Origin: Candidatus Dormiibacterota bacterium
GTDB lineage: Bacteria > Chloroflexota > Dormibacteria > CF-121
Direction of reading: 5' to 3'
DNA length: 64,000 bases
NCBI GenBank assembly: GCA_035544955.1
Contig: DASZZN010000051.1
Coordinates: 62,001 to 126,000 of the forward strand
Below, piece by piece: positions 22,990 through 50,071 of the stretch. The notes beneath the pieces were generated by a model, which saw only the letters and a list, made by a program, of their open reading frames with translations, was not told where the DNA came from and searched no databases. How positions within the stretch are numbered: position 1 is the stretch's first letter; every line of letters starts with the position of its first letter. Made by a program: the position numbers and the translations under genes.

Positions 22990-23253
22990 TCACCTCCGTA
23001 GCCCGAGCTTCGCGACGACAGCCCGGTAGCGCTCGATGTCGGTGCGCTGCAGGTAGTTCAGCAGCCGGCGGCGTTTGCCGACCAGCTGGAGCAGCCCGCG
23101 CCGCGAATTGTGGTCGTGGGCGTGCGTCTTGAGGTGGTCGGTGAGGTGGTTGATCCGTTCGCTGAAGATGGCGATCTGGACTTCGGACGATCCGGTGTCC
23201 TTGTCATTGAGGCGGTTCGCCTCGATGACGCCCGCTTTGATGCTCGTTGCCAG
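22990..23253 (-). CDS. rpsO: Small-subunit ribosomal protein uS15, apparent CTG start
   Basis: Primary 16S rRNA-binding protein of the 30S platform. The reading frame encodes the full S15 fold: [30 protein letters not shown] and [12 protein letters not shown] at the end. Between the upstream in-frame stop and this conserved region there is no ATG, GTG or TTG. The CTG at 23253-23251 lies 8 nt after a perfect AGGAGG and gives 87 residues, very close to the 89 of E. coli. Gene identity is certain; the CTG start is the best-supported reading. Upstream is the lipid kinase, downstream pnp. Confidence 0.92.
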
Positions 23254-26050: not shown

Positions 26051-27075
26051 CCGAGGTCGTTCATGCGCGCACGGACTTCGGCGAGCACCTTGGCCTCCGC
26101 TTCCTTGAGCGGCAATGGCAGCTCGATCCCCGCGGCCCGTCGGTGGCCGCCACCGCCGAACCGGGCAGCGAGCTCGGCCGCGTCGACCTGGTCGCGACTC
26201 CGGATGCTGACCTTCGTCAGACGCGGGCCTGCCTCTTTGAAAAGGATCGCGAGCTCCTGGCCGCGGACGGTGTTGAGCTGGTCGATGGCGCTGTCGGCCT
26301 GGTCCGTCGTCGCGCCACTATCCCGTAGCCCGGCCTGGCTGATCGATCCCCAGACAAGGCGATCGCCGAACTCGTAATGCAGGCCCTGGAGGATCCGCCC
26401 CTGCATCCGTAGCGACGAGGCCGGCCGGCTCTTGAAGAGCCCGCGGGCGATCGCGACCGGATCTGCGCCGAACTGCACCAGCTCGGCCGCGGCGCGCAGT
26501 GCCTGCGCCGAGGTGTTGTCGTGTCGGAAGCCGCCGGTGTCAGAAAGGATCGTGGCGTACAGGCAGGACGCGGCACCCGGCGGAATGTCGATCTTCCAGG
26601 CCTTGAGCAGGTCGTAGACGAGCTCGCCCGTGGAGGCGGCGTCGGTGAGCACCAGGTTGATGGTGCCGAAGCGCGTGTTCGAGACATGGTGATCGACGTT
26701 GACCACCACCCGCGCCTGCGTCACCACCGGCTCGTAGCTGCCGGCACGCGACGCATCGCTCGCATCGAAGATGAAGACAGGGGTGCCAGCCGGCGGCGCC
26801 TGCTGGTTGACGCGCTCGATGCCGGGGAGGAACCACCAGGCACCCGGCACGGGCGGCGAGGAGAGCACGGGCACGGCCTTCCCGATCGGCTCCAGCGCGA
26901 GAGCGAGAGCCAGGGCCGAGCCGAGCGTGTCGCCGTCCGCATCTTTATGCGTGACCGCCGTCACGACTGGAACGTCGTCGATCACCTGCCAGATCCGAGG
27001 CGCCAGCTCGGCCACCTCGGGGCGCGGTGGAGCGAGCTCAGCTGCCGGCGTTTGGTTCCCCTTGCTGAACTTCAC
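26047..27075 (-). CDS. nrnA: DHH-family phosphoesterase (NrnA-like oligoribonuclease/pAp phosphatase)
   Basis: Degrades nanoRNA and 3'-phosphoadenosine 5'-phosphate in the family. DHH motifs are visible: THKDADGDTLGS (in place of HxNPDGD), VFIFDASD, VNVDHHVSN and SDTGGFRH; the DHHA1 domain ends with GGGGHRRAAG. GTG 27075 lies inside rbfA and lacks a ribosome site, whereas an in-frame ACG at 27051 follows AAGGGGA at good spacing, so the true start is unsettled. The nusA-infB-rbfA-nrnA-truB-ribF order is the classical cluster. Confidence 0.92.
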   Translation of the reverse strand: MKFSKGNQTPAAELAPPRPEVAELAPRIWQVIDDVPVVTAVTHKDADGDTLGSALALALALEPIGKAVPVLSSPPVPGAWWFLPGIERVNQQAPPAGTPVFIFDASDASRAGSYEPVVTQARVVVNVDHHVSNTRFGTINLVLTDAASTGELVYDLLKAWKIDIPPGAASCLYATILSDTGGFRHDNTSAQALRAAAELVQFGADPVAIARGLFKSRPASSLRMQGRILQGLHYEFGDRLVWGSISQAGLRDSGATTDQADSAIDQLNTVRGQELAILFKEAGPRLTKVSIRSRDQVDAAELAARFGGGGHRRAAGIELPLPLKEAEAKVLAEVRARMNDLG

Positions 27076-27403
27076 GCAAAAGCTGGCTCATTCGGACGCT
27101 ATAGGCGACGCCCTCATCGAGCTGGAAATGCAGGTCGGGGGCGAACCGCAGGTTCGAGAGACGGGAGCCCAGCTCCCGCCGGATGAAACCTTTCGCGTGA
27201 TCCAACCCGTCGATCGCAGCCTGGCGCGCATCGTCCTCGCCGACGACGCTCACCTTGACCGTCGCATTGCGAAGGTCAGGACTGAGCTTCACCTCACTGA
27301 TCGTCGCCATCCCGATCCGGGGATCCTTGAGGTCGCGGATGATGATCTGACTGATTTCTTCGCGTAGTTGTGCGGCGACGCGTTCAACTCTATGAGTGCC
27401 CAT
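27038..27403 (-). CDS. rbfA: Ribosome-binding factor A
   Basis: KH-fold 30S maturation and cold-response factor. RVERVAAQLREEISQII, KDPRIGMATISEVKLSPDL and the C-terminal RFAPDLHFQLDEGV are characteristic. 121 residues from ATG 27403. The 3' end overlaps the nrnA start region. In most relatives it directly follows infB; here two accessory genes intervene. Confidence 0.95.
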   Translation of the reverse strand: MGTHRVERVAAQLREEISQIIIRDLKDPRIGMATISEVKLSPDLRNATVKVSVVGEDDARQAAIDGLDHAKGFIRRELGSRLSNLRFAPDLHFQLDEGVAYSVRMSQLLREVQQGEPNAGS

Positions 27404-27461: not shown

Positions 27462-28145
27462 TCAGCCTCCCCCTCTGGGCAGGGTACCGGTAGGGGCTTT
27501 TTTCGCCAAAAGCAGGGTATGCCCACCCGTTCCTTCGGGAATGAACCGCGTCCAGAGAACCTCGAACCCGGCGTCCTTGACCCAGGCGAGGTAGGTCTCC
27601 CGGTCGGCATGGCTCCAGTACATGGGCGCGCCGTGCCAGTTCTCCTCGGTTCCCGTCCAGGCACCGCTCCCCACTGTCGCTAGCAGGTAGCCACCCGATC
27701 TGAGCCAGCGACTCAGCTTCCGAAAGATTCCGGGCTGCTCTTCTACAGGGACGTGAATGATCGCGAAGAACGACACGATTGCTCTAAAGTTCTCGGCCGG
27801 GAACGCAACCTCAGACATGTCCTGGCAGAGGAACTGAGCCGCGGGTACCAACCGACGAGCCCGCTCGACCTGGACCGGCGAGATATCGACGCCGGTCACC
27901 AAGAATCTTTCCGCCAATATCGCGGTTGCTGGGACTCCACAACCGCAGCCGAGGTCGAGGACCGGATCGCCGTCTTTGAGAAGCGGTGTGACTTCGGCTA
28001 GCCACATTTCATACCCAGGCCGCGACGCCCGCTCGCCCAGGTTGTCCTGTGATGGTCCCCGGCCCAAGTCGTCGCGATATTCGTACGAGATCCGGTCATA
28101 GCCCTCGCGAACGATCCTCTTCGGATCGATCTCAGGTTCTGGCGT
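27462..28145 (-). CDS. SAM-dependent methyltransferase, start codon non-canonical
   Basis: Class I methyltransferase: motif I VLDLGCGCGVPAT, VTGVDISPVQVERAR and FRAIVSFFAIIHVP. The frame continues upstream of the first TTG (28067) through KRIVREGYDRISYEYRDD, a stretch methyltransferases of this type normally have, yet holds no ATG, GTG or TTG before an in-frame stop at 28167. ACG at 28145 follows GGAGAGG and gives 227 residues; ATC 28130 is another option. It overlaps the end of the oxidoreductase gene by 14 nt. The C-terminal PTGTLPRGGG may derive from the dispersed repeat. Substrate unknown. Confidence 0.78.
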   Translation of the reverse strand, partial: TPEPEIDPKRIVREGYDRISYEYRDDLGRGPSQDNLGERASRPGYEMWLAEVTPLLKDGDPVLDLGCGCGVPATAILAERFLVTGVDISPVQVERARRLVPAAQFLCQDMSEVAFPAENFRAIVSFFAIIHVPVEEQPGIFRKLSRWLRSGGYLLATVGSGAWTGTEENWHGAPMYWSHADRETYLAWVKDAGFEVLWTRFIPEGTGGHTLLLAKKAPTGTLPRGGG

Positions 28146-29046
28146 CGAGCCTCTCCAACACCGGAGCTAGGGCTTCGATCGACGCTTCGGTGATCGGATC
28201 GATGACCAGCTGCACGTGGCCGATTCCTTCGCGCGCGTAGGCAAGCAGGGCGTCCGCAAGATCGTCAGCGCTCCCTTCGAGCGGTGTCACGTGCTCCGAG
28301 GCATCAGCCTCGCGAGGCTGGTCGGCCGCGCCGGGCAACCGAACCAGAACGGCGACCGTACGTTCTACGTCACTCGGCGTACGTCCGGCCACTGTGCAGG
28401 CGGCGTCGACCTTCGCCCTCAGCGGTGCGACGCCATCGGGTCGATTGCCGGTCCAGCTGTACCACGCATTCCAGCTGTCGACGTACGGTACCGTGAGCTC
28501 CAGCATCCGCTCGCCAATAGACCCCACCATCAGCGGTGGTCCGCCTGGACGCGGCCGCGGCAGGAGCTCGCAGTCTCGAGCCGAATAGAACTCTCCCGCG
28601 AAGTCGACGCGGCCTTCGCGCAGCAGGGAGCGAATGATGGTGAAGGCTTCGGCGAATCGCGCGACACGCCGGTCAAAGGGAAAGCCGAACGCCCGATATT
28701 CCGTCTCGTTCCATCCCGCACCCAACCCGAGGATGAGACGTCCACCGCTGATCTCGTCGACGGTCGCGGCCAGCTTGGCCAGCATCGCCGGATTGTGAAA
28801 GCTGGTGCAGGCGACCAACGGCCCAATCGCGATCCGGCTCGTCGCGGCGGCGATGCCGGCCAGCGTCGTCCAGGCCTCCCACGGACCCCTGGCTCCGTGG
28901 ATCTCGTCACGATAGAGCAGGTGATCGCCCACCCACACCGAATCGAAGCCCAGCTGCTCGCCGAGTCGGGTCATGGCGACGATTTCCGGCCAGCGGACTT
29001 CGCGCTCCACCTCGGGCAGCTGGAAGCCGACCTTAAGCGGGCGCGT
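28132..29046 (-). CDS. LLM-class flavin/F420-dependent oxidoreductase, start codon non-canonical
   Basis: Luciferase-like TIM-barrel oxidoreductase. Conserved stretches are KVGFQLPEVEREVRWPE, GFDSVWVGDHLLYR, GPLVACTSFHNPAMLAK and LGLGAGWNETEYRAFGFPF. Homology starts right after the infB stop, but no ATG, GTG or TTG lies there; the frame upstream is antisense-like noise inside infB. ACG at 29046, 4 nt after the infB stop, would give 304 residues, a normal length. An internal ATG would remove the first beta strand. Cofactor F420 is likely from the subfamily but not proven. Confidence 0.85.
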   Translation of the reverse strand, partial: TRPLKVGFQLPEVEREVRWPEIVAMTRLGEQLGFDSVWVGDHLLYRDEIHGARGPWEAWTTLAGIAAATSRIAIGPLVACTSFHNPAMLAKLAATVDEISGGRLILGLGAGWNETEYRAFGFPFDRRVARFAEAFTIIRSLLREGRVDFAGEFYSARDCELLPRPRPGGPPLMVGSIGERMLELTVPYVDSWNAWYSWTGNRPDGVAPLRAKVDAACTVAGRTPSDVERTVAVLVRLPGAADQPREADASEHVTPLEGSADDLADALLAYAREGIGHVQLVIDPITEASIEALAPVLERLDART

Positions 29047-29050
29047 CGGA

Positions 29051-31048
29051 TTACGCCTGTTTGACCTGGTAGGACTCGATGACGTCGCCCTGCTGGAAGT
29101 CCTGGTAGCCGTCGACCCGGATGCCGCACTCCAGTCCGGACAGCACCTCGTGGACGTCGTCCTTGAAGCGCTTGAGGCCCGCGATCTGGCCTTCGTGGAT
29201 CGGCTTGTTGTCCCGCAGGATCTTGGCGAGAGACCCGCTCGTGATCTTGCCGTCCAGCACCCGCGAGCCGGCGATGATGCCCAGCTTCGGGATTTTGATC
29301 GGCGTGAGCACCTCGGCGCGGCCTTCCCAGACCTGGACGAAGGTGGGCTCGTACAGCCCCTTGATGGCGCGTTCGATGTCGTTGGTGACGTTGTAGACGA
29401 CGTCGTAACTGCGAATGTCGACCTTCTCCCGCTCGGCCGCTTTCTGGGCGAGCGCGTCGGACTTGACATTGAAAGCGATGACGAGCGCGTTGGAGACCGC
29501 CGCCAGCAGGATGTCCGACTCCGTCACGGTGCCGACACCCTCGAAGACGATCTTGATCTGCACCTGGGGGTCCTGGATCTTGAGCAACGAGCCCTTGAGC
29601 GCCTCCACCGAGCCATTGCTGTCGCCCTTGATGACAAGGTTCAGGTCCTTGACGGCGCCCTTCCCGATCTGCGCCGACAGGTCGGCCAGCGTGACCCGGC
29701 GCGTCTGCGCCAGGGTCGCGACACGGTACTGCTCCGCTCGCTGGCCCGCAATGGTCCGCGCGACCTTCTCGCTGGAGACCACCTGGAAGATATCGCCCGC
29801 GGTGGGCACATCGGGCAGGCCGGTGACAACGGCCGGCGTCGCCGGCCCGGCTTCCTTCATCTTCTTGCCTCGATCATCGAGCAGCGCGCGCACCTTGCCG
29901 AAGATGTGCCCGACCACGAGGTTGTCGCCGATCCGAAGCGTGCCACTCTGCACGAGCACGGTCGCGACCGGGCCGCGGCCCTTCTCCAGGTGGGCGTCGA
30001 TCACGGTGCCGGCGGCCAGTTTGGCCGGGTTGGCCTTGAGGTCCTGAAGGTCGGCAACGAGAAGGATCATCTCGAGCAGCTCAGAGAGCCCAGTCTTCTG
30101 CTTGGCGGAGACGGGCACCATGACGGTTTGCCCACCCCACTCTTCGGGCACGAGACCCTGCTCGGAGAGGGCCTGCTTGACCCGATCGGGGTTGGCGCCC
30201 TCCTTGTCGATCTTGTTGATCGCCACCACGATCGGCACCTGGGCCGCCTTGATATGCGAGATCGCCTCGACCGTCTGCGGCATGACGCCGTCATCGGCAG
30301 CAACCACGAGCACGGCAACGTCCGTGACCTGCGCGCCGCGGGCGCGCATGGCGGTGAACGCTTCGTGACCGGGGGTGTCGAGGAAGACGATGCGCCGCCC
30401 TTTCTCCTCGACAACGTAGGCGCCGATGCTCTGGGTGATCCCACCGGCTTCGCCGGCGGCCACCTTGGTCTCGCGCACGGCGTCGAGCAGCGAGGTCTTG
30501 CCATGGTCAACATGACCCATGACGGTGACCACTGGCGGCCGGACTTTCAGGTTCTCGGCCGCTTCGCCATCGGTGCTGAAGAGCTCCGAACGCGTGGTCA
30601 GCTTGACCTGGGTGGCCTCACCTTCGCCGACGACTTCCTCGGCGATCGCCGAATCCATGGCCATCGGGCTGGCCTGGACCCCGAAGCTGTCGGCGACGAT
30701 GGCAGCCGTCTCGAAATCGATCTGCTGGTTGATGTTCGCCATGACACCGTTCTTCATCAGCTCTTTGATGATGTCGACCGTCTTGACGTCCAGGTATTCC
30801 GCCAGCTCTTTGACGGAGAGCGTCGGGGGCAGTTGAACCTTGCCTTCGGCGACCGCCTTCTTCGCCTCAGCGGCCTGGCCGGCCGCGAACTGGGTGCGCA
30901 CGGACGACTCCTGTTCCGGCGTCAGCACCGCCATGGCGTGGCGTGGTGCGTGGCGGGTCGGGCGCAGGAAATCGAGGATATCCCGGGCCTCGACGCCGAG
31001 GTCGCGGGCGAGCTGCTGAACCTTGATACCGCGAGTTGTTGTAGCTAT
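29051..31048 (-). CDS. infB: Translation initiation factor IF-2, apparent ATA start
   Basis: GTPase that brings initiator tRNA to the 30S subunit. Two N-terminal IF2_N modules are seen: [20 protein letters not shown], upstream of the first ATG, and [17 protein letters not shown]. The G domain has GHVDHGKTS (about residue 178), DTPGHEAF and NKID; domains II-IV follow to ESYQVKQA. The first module shows translation begins before ATG 30934, which also lacks a ribosome site. No ATG/GTG/TTG precedes it in frame; ATA 31048 follows AAGGATAGG and reads [12 protein letters not shown], giving 665 residues. ATT 31069 is a weaker option. Confidence 0.95.
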
Positions 31049-31086
31049 GAGTGACCTATCCTTTGCAATTCAACTGGCAATAATAG

Positions 31087-49482: not shown

Positions 49483-50049
49483 TTAATTCGTCCGTGCCTG
49501 GGCTTGAGGCGGGGGCGGCGCTTGAGCGGCCGCCGCTGCGCCAGCCGGAGCCAGGATCATGATCATGTTTCGCCCTTCGAGCAACGGCATCCGCTCGACC
49601 GTGCTGATGGTCTTCAGTTCGAGCGCCATCCGGTCGAGCAGCTTCTTGCCGATGTCCTGGTGCACCATCTCGCGGCCGCGGAACATGATCGTCAACTTGA
49701 CCTTGTCCCCCTCTTCGAGGAAGGACTTGACAGCATGGAACTTCGTCTGAAAGTCATGCTCGCCGATCTTGGGACGGAGTTTCATTTCTTTGACCTTGAT
49801 GACGTTGTGCTTGCGGCGCCCATCTTTCTCTTTCTTGATGCTCTCGAATTTGAATTTGCCGTAATCCATGATCCGAGCCACCGGTGGCTGTGCCTGCGGA
49901 GCGACCTCCACCAGGTCCATCTCCCGCTCGATGGCCAGCGCTTTGGCGCGGTCGATCGGCAGGACACCCAATTGTTCGTTCCGATCGTCGATGACGCGGA
50001 CTTCGGCGGCGCGGATCTGGTCGTTGATCCGAAGTTCCCTAAATGCCGT
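49483..50049 (-). CDS. infC: Translation initiation factor IF-3, apparent ACG start
   Basis: Proofreads start codons and keeps subunits apart. N-terminal domain RINDQIRAAEVRVID...EQLGVLP and RIMDYGKFKFESIKKEK, C-terminal domain with LRPKIGEHDFQTK and GREMVHQDIG; an Ala/Pro/Gln tail ends the protein. The conserved N-terminus begins upstream of the first TTG (49971), and no ATG/GTG/TTG exists before the in-frame stop at 50053-50055. ACG 50049 lies 8 nt after AAGGAGG and gives 188 residues starting AFRELRIND. Rare start codons in infC, used for IF3 autoregulation, are established in E. coli (AUU). Confidence 0.95.
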   Translation of the reverse strand, partial: TAFRELRINDQIRAAEVRVIDDRNEQLGVLPIDRAKALAIEREMDLVEVAPQAQPPVARIMDYGKFKFESIKKEKDGRRKHNVIKVKEMKLRPKIGEHDFQTKFHAVKSFLEEGDKVKLTIMFRGREMVHQDIGKKLLDRMALELKTISTVERMPLLEGRNMIMILAPAGAAAAAQAPPPPQAQARTN

Positions 50050-50071
50050 GGATCAAGCCTCCTTCGAAAAC

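Follow-up and report, generated by a model that had tools for sequence, protein, structure and literature searches.

An LLM-class (luciferase-like) oxidoreductase gene that lies between infB and rbfA in one genus of uncultured soil Chloroflexota appears to be translated from an ACG codon, in some species together with a methyltransferase gene. With infC and infB it would form a set of non-canonically started genes repressed by initiation factor 3 (IF3), a reading to which we give a probability of roughly two in three on the sequence evidence. The comparative evidence for the start-codon pattern itself is strong.

The window, meaning the whole stretch of DNA analysed, comprises 64,000 nt from a Candidatus Dormiibacterota bacterium (GCA_035544955.1, contig DASZZN010000051.1, positions 62,001-126,000 of the forward strand). 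The host lineage is one family of uncultured soil Chloroflexota, and the named relatives closest to it are soil Chloroflexi MAGs, such as isolates CF_57, CF_136 and CF_106. The order on the minus strand is nusA (named from reading its translation), ylxR, infB, LLM gene, methyltransferase gene, rbfA, a gene for a DHH-type protein and truB. The features around the infB-rbfA gap are:

31059-31064, minus strand: AAAGGA, Shine-Dalgarno-like by sequence, 10 nt before the infB start
29051-31048, minus strand: infB (IF2), start ATA at 31048-31046
28132-29046, minus strand: LLM-class oxidoreductase gene, 304 aa, PF00296, start ACG at 29046-29044
28150-28156, minus strand: GGAGAGG, Shine-Dalgarno-like by sequence, before the methyltransferase ACG
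27462-28145, minus strand: class I SAM methyltransferase gene, 227 aa, probable start ACG at 28145-28143, overlapping the 3' end of the LLM gene
27038-27403, minus strand: rbfA, ordinary ATG start

The initial annotation placed an LLM and a methyltransferase open reading frame at 27462-29046, and both are present on the minus strand between the end of infB at 29051 and the start of rbfA at 27403. It regarded them as inserted genes, and the synteny survey of relatives agrees, with strong support for the LLM gene and moderate support for the methyltransferase. In the sister family f3, infB and rbfA are about 40 nt apart at three of four loci and about 240 nt apart at the fourth, which marks the gap as a site of insertion in the host family. 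Twelve contigs, from 11 genomes of the genus, have the LLM gene behind infB, and most genus members carry it in the gap; the methyltransferase is found only in G000, G010, G009, G013 and G008. The LLM gene would thus have entered the gap in the host lineage, and the methyltransferase would have joined it in some species.

Other cargo is found in the same gap, with names given from reading the translations. There are YCII-like and sigma-factor-like genes on the opposite strand between LLM and rbfA in G014 (L074 8600-10500), a kinase-like gene in G002 (L073 6280-7041) and, in place of LLM, a homoserine-dehydrogenase-like gene with a possible GTG start in G004 (L157 6760-7780). The suggestion that the LLM protein and the methyltransferase share a task finds little support, since several genus members have LLM but lack the methyltransferase, and the gap also holds these other genes.

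The LLM protein matches PF00296 with 181.9 bits (gathering cut-off 27.9). Its best NCBIfam match is TIGR03560 (F420_Rv1855c) with 189.5 bits, which is below the curated cut-off of 231.4 and places it in a neighbouring subfamily. An F420 ligase is encoded in the genome, which makes F420 a plausible cofactor, and the enzyme is probably F420-dependent judging from these sequences. The methyltransferase matches PF13649 with 71.4 bits, above the gathering cut-off of 27.

As had been described, the LLM gene has no ATG, GTG or TTG from the infB stop to its conserved N-terminus TRPLKVGFQLPEVER, and the ACG at 29046-29044 is suitably placed 4 nt past the infB TAA. This codon is ACG in 12 of 12 contigs (11 genomes), and the N-terminus reads ACG CGN CCN CTN AAR, where the codons after ACG vary synonymously. 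Only 3 of 113 conserved columns of four- or sixfold degenerate codons in the gene are codon-invariant, so the identity of the ACG is more than chance. Two partial LLM copies in G007, on contigs C221 (L076) and C168 (L081), are 77% and 88% identical to that in the window and both have ACG; they possibly represent two strains or a partial overlap.

In MAGs of other Chloroflexota and of Actinomycetota, the LLM orthologs lie away from infB. They begin with ATG, GTG or TTG, mostly no more than a few codons from this position; one example is ATG ACC CGC CCC TTG AAG. The nearest ortholog outside the genus, in G015, has TTG exactly at the place of ACG and GTG three codons upstream. One more distant ortholog is labelled Candidatus Limnocylindrales. 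It had been proposed that relatives with the genes elsewhere and ATG at internal positions would speak against the ACG start, and the canonical starts of the LLM relatives are instead found near the same N-terminus.

The only canonical codons nearby in the LLM frame are GTG at residue 13 and ATG at residue 25, apart from an ATG far upstream within infB. It could be argued from this that translation begins at one of the two internal codons and that the conservation upstream is incidental, but this is very improbable. GTG13 is replaced by GTC in G009 and G015, coding conservation extends 5' of both codons, residues 2-12 vary almost only synonymously, and G7, Q9, L10, P11 and E12 are invariant across 27 orthologs. 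Strand beta1 comprises residues 5-9 in the AlphaFold model (pLDDT 91, pTM 0.90), so a start at either codon would remove the first strand of the barrel. That the LLM protein is instead made as a fusion with IF2 by frameshift or readthrough could be imagined because in many genomes the open LLM frame extends back into infB. We give this almost no credence and reject a frameshift fusion: nine contigs have 4 nt between the infB stop and the ACG and the other three have 5 nt, the relative frame of the two genes therefore differs among species, the stop is TAA or TAG, and the 12 contigs have no conserved slippery site. The same difference in spacing indicates that LLM is initiated on its own.

The junction of 4-5 nt in all 12 contigs is as short as in gene pairs coupled by termination-reinitiation, and there is no clear Shine-Dalgarno sequence for the LLM ACG in the spacer. 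Coupling to infB, which had been suggested for both genes, has strong support for LLM and moderate support for the methyltransferase as far as sequence can indicate it.

The methyltransferase likewise has no canonical codon before TTG 28067, which is already inside the conserved N-terminus YDRIS.EYRDD, and its ACG stands behind GGAGAGG as described, although this motif is not conserved as such in G010 and G009. The start is ACG in three genomes (G000, G010 and G009), with ATG one codon off in G013, and relatives elsewhere have ATG or GTG nearby by reading of the alignment. Since this ACG shares nucleotides with the Leu-Asp codons of LLM, its conservation is not independent evidence. ACG is the most likely start of the methyltransferase as well and would probably be used.

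The initial annotation was right about the insertion, the ACG starts and the possible coupling, if not about the shared task, but it missed three further genes without canonical starts: infB, infC and rpsO. The odd starts are thus a translation-factor pattern and not a property of the two inserted genes. The additional features are:

50058-50064, minus strand: AAGGAGG, perfect Shine-Dalgarno sequence of infC
49483-50049, minus strand: infC (IF3), PF00707 match, start ACG at 50049-50047
22990-23253, minus strand: rpsO (S15), start CTG at 23253-23251 behind AGGAGG at 23267-23262

In infB, a conserved stretch of 19 residues is preceded by ATA in every one of the 11 genus genomes that include the 5' end. 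The codon is also ATA in G017 from another genus, ATC in G015 and G016 from two genera, and ATG at the homologous place in the sister family f3. Elsewhere in the infB alignment ATA is used for 1 of 468 Ile codons. A TAG directly before the ATA in G005 excludes an earlier start, and relatives have a purine-rich GGAGG or AAAGGA at the same place as the AAAGGA in the window.

The 5' end of infC is constant in the family, with ACG GCA TTT AGG GAA CTT behind AAGGAGG and an in-frame TGA two codons upstream. Of 18 family genomes, 17 show this pattern, and in the 18th the contig is cut; among 92 further genomes of the class none does, and at the infC start the ones inspected carry ATC or ATA. A search of 400 phylum genomes with one form of the pattern, which would miss other Shine-Dalgarno or sequence forms, found it in the host family and in one further genome, G112, where the match (TGFSEL after the Shine-Dalgarno sequence) is probably due to chance. 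Two marks of an infC gene under IF3 autocontrol are present, namely a conserved start other than AUG, GUG or UUG and a normal IF3 product (PF00707, with the motifs KEMKLRPK and TIMFRGREMVHQ intact). In rpsO, the whole open frame lacks ATG, GTG and TTG, and all genomes shown, comprising the genus and G016, have the same CTG behind AGGAGG.

Start usage was sampled from the 64-kb window and the ribosomal-protein operon. In the ribosomal-protein region about 25 genes, fusA, tuf and an infA-like gene among them, begin at ordinary codons. The same holds for the remaining conserved genes of the window, as far as profiles of synonymous and non-synonymous change show. Because the ribosomal-protein operon is ordinary, generally relaxed starts can be rejected and the non-canonical starts are selective. 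A special initiator tRNA is rejected too, since one normal GGGCTCATAACCC (CAU) site was found per genome searched and the motif search found no CGU version in the host's own genome. A few relatives have CGU-like motif matches, which are candidates only. A loose variant of IF3 was rejected because the family IF3 is as conserved as that of relatives in the alignment.

The codons ACG, AUA and AUC are almost never used as bacterial starts. In Escherichia coli, IF3 rejects mismatched pairs of initiator tRNA and codon and represses its own AUU-started gene. It demands Watson-Crick pairs at the first two codon bases, and mismatches at the second position give almost no product in a reconstituted E. 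coli system (PMC10158994). The use of ACG must therefore be compensated by a Shine-Dalgarno sequence or by reinitiation, and ACG, mismatched at position 2, should be even more sensitive to IF3. When IF3 is in excess, non-canonical starts and reinitiation are both inhibited (PMC2268962). Autocontrol of infC through AUU is classical according to work cited in PMC9845219, and in Staphylococcus aureus the infC start is AUA, where tested AUU and AUA sites gave about 10% of AUG (PMC13009471).

With IF3 conserved and the initiator tRNA normal, our analysis points to repression of the set by free IF3 as the most likely mechanism. Free IF3 would repress infC through ACG and infB through AUA or AUC, and the LLM gene and the methyltransferase through ACG combined with reinitiation. 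The strong Shine-Dalgarno sequence of infC may compensate for its ACG. For LLM, ribosomes that reinitiate after finishing infB would make up for the ACG, and translation of LLM from this codon, 4-5 nt behind the infB stop, would probably proceed by such termination-reinitiation. A low output of an F420-type enzyme would in this way be tied to the balance of initiation factors. A wider reading is tentative and falls short of an even chance: an IF3 regulon of near-cognate starts that includes infC (ACG), infB (AUA or AUC), perhaps rpsO (CUG) and, in one genus, LLM and the methyltransferase (ACG), where ACG is a selected regulatory start signal.

The ACG starts may also be real and yet serve only for weak constitutive expression through translational coupling, independently of IF3. 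Weak starts generally lower output (PMC13009471) and the LLM ACG sits just behind the infB stop, but infC and infB, whose products set start-codon selection, share the odd codons and regulation fits this better; we regard the constitutive alternative as rather unlikely. Editing of ACG to AUG in the mRNA is extremely improbable. C-to-U editing of mRNA that creates a start codon is not known to us from bacteria, and editing would leave the infB AUA or AUC and the rpsO CTG unexplained, even if edited starts in chloroplasts are typically ACG (PMC9845219).

Searches of open-licence papers brought up neither a native bacterial ACG start nor any paper on ACG-started infC or AUA-started infB. Non-canonical starts on initiation-factor genes are already known; what is new is ACG and the extension to an inserted metabolic gene. 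Conserved across four genera, the ACG-started infC is a natural experiment on the limits of start-codon discrimination and on IF3 feedback when the mismatch is at the second position. Gene finders that allow only ATG, GTG and TTG must misplace or miss the starts of the essential genes infB, infC and rpsO in the host family.

Among known systems, infC autocontrol in E. coli (AUU) and S. aureus (AUA) resembles the present case in that the IF3 gene has a non-canonical start that is conserved and stands behind a good Shine-Dalgarno sequence. The mismatch there is at codon position 3 but here at position 2, infB is here also involved with AUA or AUC, and the control by IF3 is a prediction extrapolated from E. 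coli. In translationally coupled pairs the downstream start follows or overlaps the preceding gene, as LLM follows infB and the methyltransferase overlaps LLM, but here the downstream start is ACG and not ATG, GTG or TTG. The LLM protein resembles the F420-dependent oxidoreductases of the TIGR03560/Rv1855c type in its best match and in the F420 ligase of its genome, and differs by its score below the curated cut-off. Chloroplast genes resemble the present ones in that ACG opens conserved genes; there it is commonly edited to AUG, whereas here no editing is indicated.
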